Positions 24,650 to 25,384 of a stretch of DNA of 64,000 bases are shown piece after piece. Where the stretch lies: NCBI GenBank assembly GCA_035764005.1, contig DASTZZ010000115.1, positions 62,001 to 126,000 of the forward strand. Reading direction: 5' to 3'. The notes beneath the pieces are model-generated. The model was not told where the DNA came from. It was given only the letters and a program-made list of their open reading frames with translations, and made no database searches. This DNA is from Terriglobales bacterium (lineage in GTDB: Bacteria; Acidobacteriota; Terriglobia; Terriglobales; Acidobacteriaceae). Numbering within the stretch: position 1 is the first letter of the stretch; each line of letters opens with the position of its first letter. Position numbers and translations under genes: made by a program.

Positions 24650-24797
24650 AAAAGCCTCGGGACGAAACGGGCAGCCGCAAGTACTCACATTCTTTTGGAT
24701 GCGCCGCTGGGCCTATGATTCGCCTGTTTCTGCAGAAAAGCAATATCCACATGCGCCAGAGTTGGCGAGTTACCATAGCTCTGCAGGAGGTCCTGGC

Positions 24798-25217
24798 ATG
24801 AGCTTCACCCCCGACGACGTTCGCAGAAATGCCGACTACTTCGCTCACAAGCTGCACGCCGAGAAGCAGCGCAATGACGTGCTCAAAGCGGTGGAAGGCA
24901 GCGGCAAGTACGATTTCGTGCTCCTCGACACGCGCGGCCGCGACGCCTTCAACAGCGGCCATATTCCCGGCGCCTGGCTGGTTCCCGATTCAGGAATTGA
25001 CCAGATCGCCTCTACCCTTCCCAAAGACAAGGAAATCGTGACCTACTGCTGGAGTCATGATTGACAGCTCTCCGCAAAAGCAGCTTTGCAGTTGGCAAAG
25101 CAAGGATTCTTCGCCAAGGAAATGAACGTCGGCTGGAAAGAGTGGACTTACAACCGCCATCCCACGCACCAGGAGAAAGTCGGCGCGGATGGCGTTCATT
25201 GCTCGTGCAGTAAATAG
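24798..25217 (+). CDS. Rhodanese-like protein with in-frame TGA at codon 89 (candidate selenoprotein)
   Basis: 139 codons if the TGA at 25062-25064 is read through; otherwise truncated at 88 aa. The ATG follows a consensus AGGAGG (24785-24790) at 7-nt spacing. The rhodanese domain shows YDFVLLDTRGRDAFNSGHIP (residues 39-58) and the active-site loop IVTYCWSHD (80-88) with catalytic Cys84. The TGA is followed in frame by QLSAKAALQLAKQGFFAKEM, VGWKEWTYNRHPTH and a CSCSK end, all expected for the domain, with a TAG at 25215. The TGA occupies the position where I recall relatives having a second cysteine (C-W-x-x-x-C). A hairpin with an AGTTG loop lies 18 nt later. A nonsense mutation is the alternative. 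Confidence 0.75.
25083..25101 (+). promoter_or_regulatory. Candidate bacterial SECIS hairpin after the in-frame TGA
   Basis: GCTTTGC (25083-25089), loop AGTTG and GCAAAGC (25095-25101) form a perfect 7-bp stem. The apical loop starts 25 nt after the TGA and has G in its second position. Published descriptions of bacterial SECIS elements, as I remember them, ask for a loop about 16-37 nt after UGA with a G among its first two bases; both hold. The hairpin lies in coding sequence, as bacterial SECIS elements do. Confidence 0.5.
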
Positions 25218-25274: not shown

Positions 25275-25384
25275 CCGGGGTTAACACGAAGGTCACGAAG
25301 TTTGGAAAGCAAGTTCACGAAGATAGTTTGCGATTTCTCCGTGACCTTGACATTCAAACTTCGTGACCTTCGTGTTAACCCCGG
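25275..25384. repeat. Perfect 30-bp inverted repeat upstream of the hexosaminidase
   Basis: The left arm 25275-25304 starts CCGGGGTTAACACGAAGGTC; the right arm 25355-25384 is its exact reverse complement, with a 50-bp loop that contains a further CACGAAG/CCGTGACC partial pairing. It shares the ACACGAAGGNCAC motif with the elements at 34621-34855 and 36474-36613. It is intergenic and carries no ORF of its own; as RNA it would form a very stable hairpin between the rhodanese and GH20 genes. Confidence 0.75.

Follow-up and report, generated by a model that had tools for sequence, protein, structure and literature searches.

The window, the whole 64,000-nucleotide stretch analysed here from a Terriglobales bacterium, carries on its forward strand a candidate rhodanese selenoprotein gene at positions 24798–25217. 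By direct reading, the frame opens with an ATG at 24798, preceded at a distance of 7 nt by a Shine-Dalgarno-like AGGAGG (24785–24790, forward strand), and closes with a TAG at 25215–25217. It contains a single in-frame TGA, at codon 89 (25062–25064). When this codon is translated, no further stop precedes the TAG, and the product has 139 residues with selenocysteine (Sec) at residue 89. The AGGAGG before the start and the uninterrupted frame beyond the TGA, both claimed in the preliminary description, are borne out by this reading. With the TGA read as Cys, residues 35–117, which span codon 89, match the Pfam Rhodanese family PF00581 with 53.8 bits, above the gathering cut-off of 22.2, and the protein is a member of that family. 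The active-site loop of this one small domain reads C84-W-S-H-D-U89, a C-x4-Sec (CxxxxU) motif. Codon 84 (25047–25049) encodes the Cys at the rhodanese catalytic place, a role assigned by homology, and the C-terminal Cys135-x-Cys137 (25200–25208), on the same strand, is a possible resolving dithiol.

The gene is flanked by a hypothetical-protein gene on the opposite strand and by a beta-hexosaminidase-like gene (read by eye, no family search). The neighbours of its relatives mostly differ across the 10 loci inspected by eye, and this context yields no function. Just 3′ of the gene lies a large inverted repeat (25275–25384), with 49-nt arms that are 88% complementary and 12 nt apart. Its core, AACACGAAGGTCACGAAG, or near copies of it are present at five places in the window (none expected by chance), and a 15-nt core recurs in some other loci of the same genome; the repeat looks like a dispersed element.

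Downstream of the TGA, a SECIS-like hairpin occupies positions 25083–25101 of the forward strand. Seven perfect pairs between the arms 25083–25089 and 25095–25101 enclose the loop AGTTG (25090–25094), the stem beginning 18 nt and the loop 25 nt past the TGA, exactly as the preliminary description had stated. The accessible text of a 2026 catalogue gives the limits of bacterial SECIS elements as a loop of 3–9 nt, a stem of 4–16 bp, a distance of 16–37 nt from the UGA, a G in the first two loop positions and an energy of at most −7.5 (PMC13188914). The window hairpin lies within them (loop 5 nt, 7 bp, 25 nt, energy −8.5 bare and −10 with flanks). We estimated how often such a structure arises by chance, counting Watson–Crick stems of at least 7 bp with a loop of 3–8 nt, placed at 16–37 nt and with G in the first two loop positions. 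These follow 16 of 2000 TGA triplets in the window (10/1004 on the forward and 6/996 on the reverse strand) and occur in 69 of 5000 sequences made by dinucleotide shuffling of the actual 60 nt after the TGA, while 90 of the 2000 window triplets pass the looser published limits. Taken alone, the hairpin is an event of about 1–4% and only suggestive, so the comparative evidence carries the case.

The genome of origin (5.1 Mb in 131 contigs, 97.5% complete) encodes the machinery for Sec insertion. The search that the preliminary description had called for recovered every component: selA (552 bits), selB (381 bits), selD (359.5 bits, with one in-frame TGA) and selC, the tRNA-Sec (65 bits), which ARAGORN reports as tRNA-SeC with anticodon TCA. 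All four matches exceed curated cut-offs; tRNA-Sec, selA and selD were searched for in this genome and selB in the genomes of relatives as well. The TGA of selD (L030, G000:C98:13144-14070) lies near the N-terminus, and SelD is itself probably a selenoprotein. The genome has nine rhodanese matches, three of them with one TGA and none with TAA or TAG. Two of these three are further rhodanese genes in which the in-frame TGA forms a YCTU sequence, a CxU motif: L004 at position 1684 (G000:C27) and L008 at position 1687 (G000:C56), the latter fused to an N-terminal region that resembles DedA. With the NCBIfam model NF041203 they reach 107.3 and 93.8 bits, respectively, under its cut-off of 115. A model-conforming hairpin follows both TGAs, with the loop at 21 nt in L008; in L004 two alternative pairings put it at 21 or 22 nt, and one of them has the loop AGTTT.

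Homologues were collected at three taxonomic depths. Among 398 genomes of the family (E up to 1e-15), four have a match: the genome of origin, G285, G126 and G059. Across 396 genomes of the phylum, at the same threshold, there are 16, namely the window gene, two further TGA genes (L041 and L042) and 13 genes with Cys at the site (L043–L055). The 389 genomes of the class (E up to 1e-20) gave 16 places in 15 genomes, 14 of them with one TGA; in the other two the codon-89 site is not visible, owing to a run of Ns in L069 and to the contig end in L070. A scan of genome contigs added eight loci, comprising six close relatives from acidobacterial records (L033–L038) and two distant rhodaneses, L039 and L040, from records of Draconibacterium and Flavobacteriaceae. 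A search of viral contigs found no relative, and all 52 records from a search of plasmids fall below 60% identity. We removed as repeats L056–L060 and L062, whose proteins are the same as those of L034, L036, L033, L038, L037 and L035, respectively, and L068, which is the place of L028.

In the resulting subfamily, codon 89 is covered by 18 distinct genes. All 18 have TGA there and none has Cys, whereas Cys occupies the site in 13/13 of the next relatives from the phylum search. Alignment of homologues, also proposed in the preliminary description, therefore places the TGA where these relatives have the second Cys of a CxxxxC pair, with the catalytic Cys84 retained, in agreement with the Cys-to-Sec replacement suggested there. 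The two distant rhodaneses L039 and L040 have neither Cys nor Sec at the site (Thr and Arg). The 14 full-length genes (the window gene, L033–L038, L041, L061 and L063–L067) have no other stop, and they share C84, W85, H87, the TGA and the two Cys of the C-terminal CxC without exception. The other four are damaged or incomplete: a second in-frame stop (TAG) interrupts L026, the frame is broken in L027 and L028, and the N-terminal half is absent from L042. The window gene is the single intact copy of the four found in its own family, where the gene is patchy. The three broken family copies (L026 in G285, L027 and L028 in G126 and G059) occur in genomes that have selB, which suggests repeated gene loss, with assembly errors as a possible contributor. 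When 28 rows were placed in a tree, all 15 Sec rows fell to the same side of one branch, whose support (86/88) is short of the program's star level; the forks that join the nearest Cys rows (CWGPGC, CDGIGC and CAGPHC) are weak (48/12). Three Cys relatives with the sequence YCDGIGC (L044, L045 and L049) likewise end in a CxC tail; the C-terminal dithiol thus goes together with a second reactive residue outside the Sec group as well.

In 17 of the 18 genes the hairpin recurs with identical geometry, a 5-nt loop at 25 nt, and passes the published limits, the sole failure being the frame-broken L027. Codon usage within it is nearly frozen in the 14 full-length genes: counting from the TGA, Ala +7 is GCT in 14/14, Leu +8 is CTG in 13/14 and Gln +9 is CAG in 14/14, while the invariant Ala +4 and Gly +14 each use four codons. 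Leu +10 and Ala +11, inside the hairpin, use two codons each, and the Cys codon +48, outside it, is likewise always TGC. Pairing is found in 96.6% of cells in the stem, against 30–44% for slid partners, with the outermost stem pair lost in 4/17. Covariation is weak and does not rise above shuffles as proof of the hairpin: one pair differs on both sides, the C-G pair being U-A in the window gene and U-G in L028, and 60 of 500 shuffles match this. Compared with shuffled sequence, only the 26-nt hairpin stands out, with a z of −1.99; longer stretches fold no better than shuffles (51 nt, z −0.02; 80 nt, z 0.87).

The structure was predicted with the TGA read as Cys (7 rows). The best of five models has a mean pLDDT of 78.9, the others ranging from 71.4 to 50.2. 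In the best model a strand (residues 79–84) is closed by Cys84 and followed by a helix (86–101). The best solved match is BH2092 of Bacillus halodurans (3o3w, 3nhv; TM by query 0.56–0.62), which by sequence search has Cys at both places; other solved rhodaneses of that search (6mxv, Alr3790) have no Cys opposite residue 89. The second Cys is often absent in distant rhodaneses.

A probable route of decoding and a possible chemistry can be drawn from these elements. Translation would initiate at the ATG at 24798; the hairpin just 3′ of UGA codon 89 would recruit SelB with Sec-tRNA(Sec), and after insertion of Sec the ribosome would continue to the UAG at 25215, yielding a single-domain rhodanese with a C-terminal C-x-C. 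Cys84 may then take up sulfane sulfur or become oxidised, and Sec89, placed in the opening turn of the following helix, could form a selenenylsulfide with it, to be resolved by the C-terminal CxC or by an external thiol. Such a protein would serve chiefly to reduce persulfides or disulfides and less as a thiosulfate:cyanide sulfurtransferase. By position and by analogy, we put forward this Cys84/Sec89 chemistry, with resolution by the CxC, tentatively.

A different reading of the same selenoprotein is that it is an ordinary sulfurtransferase, or a carrier of selenium or sulfur, in which Sec89 tunes or protects the active site and no Cys84–Sec89 redox pair forms. The intact rhodanese domain and Cys84 are what one would expect of such an enzyme, and the solved rhodaneses that the model resembles are of unknown activity; against this, no Cys version was found among the 18 genes and the C-terminal CxC, invariant in 14/14, suits a redox relay. 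We regard a sulfurtransferase or carrier role as conceivable, if somewhat doubtful. The redox proposal and this role both have Sec inserted at codon 89, and the decoding of that codon can be considered separately.

Apart from Sec insertion, the TGA might be read by another tRNA, of the Trp or Cys type, or might be a true stop between two separately translated pieces. The open frame after the TGA and the in-frame TTG codons a few codons downstream would fit one or other of these. However, a tRNA-Sec with a TCA anticodon is present, and TGA serves as the gene's own final stop in four of the relatives L034–L038, so it does not act as a sense codon throughout. In the Cys relatives the protein is one continuous chain, and by eye no Shine-Dalgarno-like site precedes the in-frame TTG codons. 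Reading by another tRNA or a split gene is accordingly very improbable.

A nonsense mutation would leave a pseudogene whose second half had yet to decay. We compared the two halves in seven full-length genes, over all pairs. Before the TGA, pS is 0.729 and pN 0.223 (pN/pS 0.305); after it, pS is 0.692 and pN 0.143 (pN/pS 0.207), ratios that are rough because pS is near saturation. No stop occurs in frame after the TGA in these genes, and the second half is under protein-level selection in the same frame. The broken copies in G285, G126 and G059 and the occurrence of the gene in 4/398 family genomes are what recurrent decay might look like, but a TGA at the same codon in 18/18 genes, the low pN downstream of it, the 14/18 genes that are full length with no other stop and the presence of the Sec machinery make a pseudogene extremely improbable; the preliminary description, too, had not expected a simple nonsense mutation, unless very recent, to leave the rest of the domain so clean. 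We accordingly reject nonsense mutation, other read-through and a split gene alike. The presence of the same TGA in other assemblies argues against a sequencing error.

Sec decoding was further compared with the distribution of selB across genomes. Nineteen genomes bear the gene: those of the 18 subfamily genes, with the six named twice counted once, and G794, which has a copy without a visible site. A selB match (E below 1e-60) is found in 16 of the 19 and in 11/11 of those that are at least 90% complete; the three bearers without one are 57, 73 and 75% complete, and the match in G564 spans positions 2–345 only. Across the family, selB is found in 175 of 398 genomes, and in 111 of the 256 good ones. 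The bearing genomes are related, so this association is support for Sec decoding and not an independent test of it. From sequence, machinery and conservation together, we predict that 24798–25217 encodes a selenoprotein, with UGA codon 89 very probably decoded as selenocysteine. The comparative evidence thus agrees with the interpretation in the preliminary description, and none of the refuting findings named there that could be examined came up.

Rhodanese selenoproteins are known in several forms. In its accessible text, the 2026 catalogue lists forms 1–5 with the motifs UxxS, UxxG, CxU, UxxG and UxxxxU (PMC13188914). An earlier review, in the part available, has three rhodanese entries, one of them CxU (PMC9312934), and the Sargasso Sea survey, likewise in its available text, includes a rhodanese-related sulfurtransferase family (PMC1088965). 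For the phylum, the available text of a 2006 survey gives three selenoprotein families in Acidobacteria (PMC1794560). The deep-Sep paper reports one acidobacterium with three known and no new selenoproteins, and its main text contains neither ‘rhodanese’ nor ‘sulfurtransferase’ (PMC12013277). The string ‘CxxxxU’ was not found in the main texts searched, mostly of open-access papers, and none of the NCBIfam models reaches its cut-off with the window protein.

Among the closest known forms, form 3 (NF041203, CxU), as far as its available description goes, shares the rhodanese domain, the retained catalytic Cys and a Sec shortly after it. Its Sec lies at +2 from the Cys, in contrast to +5 in the window protein, whose motif is CxxxxU and which scores 52.7 bits against the cut-off of 115. 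TsoB (NF045694), the rhodanese/DsbD fusion-like form 5, has a rhodanese domain and, by its listed motif UxxxxU, equal spacing of the reactive residues. TsoB has two Sec and a DsbD-like part, however, whereas the window protein has Cys-x4-Sec, one Sec and 139 residues, and scores 19.6 bits against a cut-off of 805. A TsoB search of 376 phylum genomes gave nothing over the cut-off, the listed places lying mainly past profile position 150. Forms 1, 2 and 4 (UxxS, UxxG and UxxG) resemble the window protein in having a rhodanese-like domain and one predicted Sec (PMC13188914). By their listed motifs, this Sec has no preceding Cys and perhaps stands at the catalytic place itself, while the Cys is kept in the window protein. 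BH2092 shares the fold region and has Cys at both places, as do the CxxxxC rhodaneses of the phylum (L043–L055); in all of these the second place is Cys, in contrast to Sec in the window protein.

With its CxxxxU motif, the protein thus apparently represents a rhodanese selenoprotein that has yet to be catalogued, and would bring one more motif beside the five forms of the 2026 catalogue. Its distribution in Acidobacteriota is patchy, and some genomes have broken copies. An annotation under the standard code would presumably end the gene at the TGA and lose its second half. We suggest, as a possibility that falls short of a probable conclusion, that it represents a new rhodanese selenoprotein subfamily, seen so far only in Acidobacteriota, whose Sec acts as the resolving residue for the ordinary rhodanese Cys in an intramolecular selenenylsulfide relay. 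Because Sec stands here at the second, non-catalytic place of the loop and no Cys version was found among the subfamily genes, Sec/Cys exchange could test what the second Cys of CxxxxC rhodaneses does. If the relay is real, the C84-x4-Sec89 pair and the C-terminal CxC would turn the rhodanese fold into an oxidoreductase of persulfides or disulfides.
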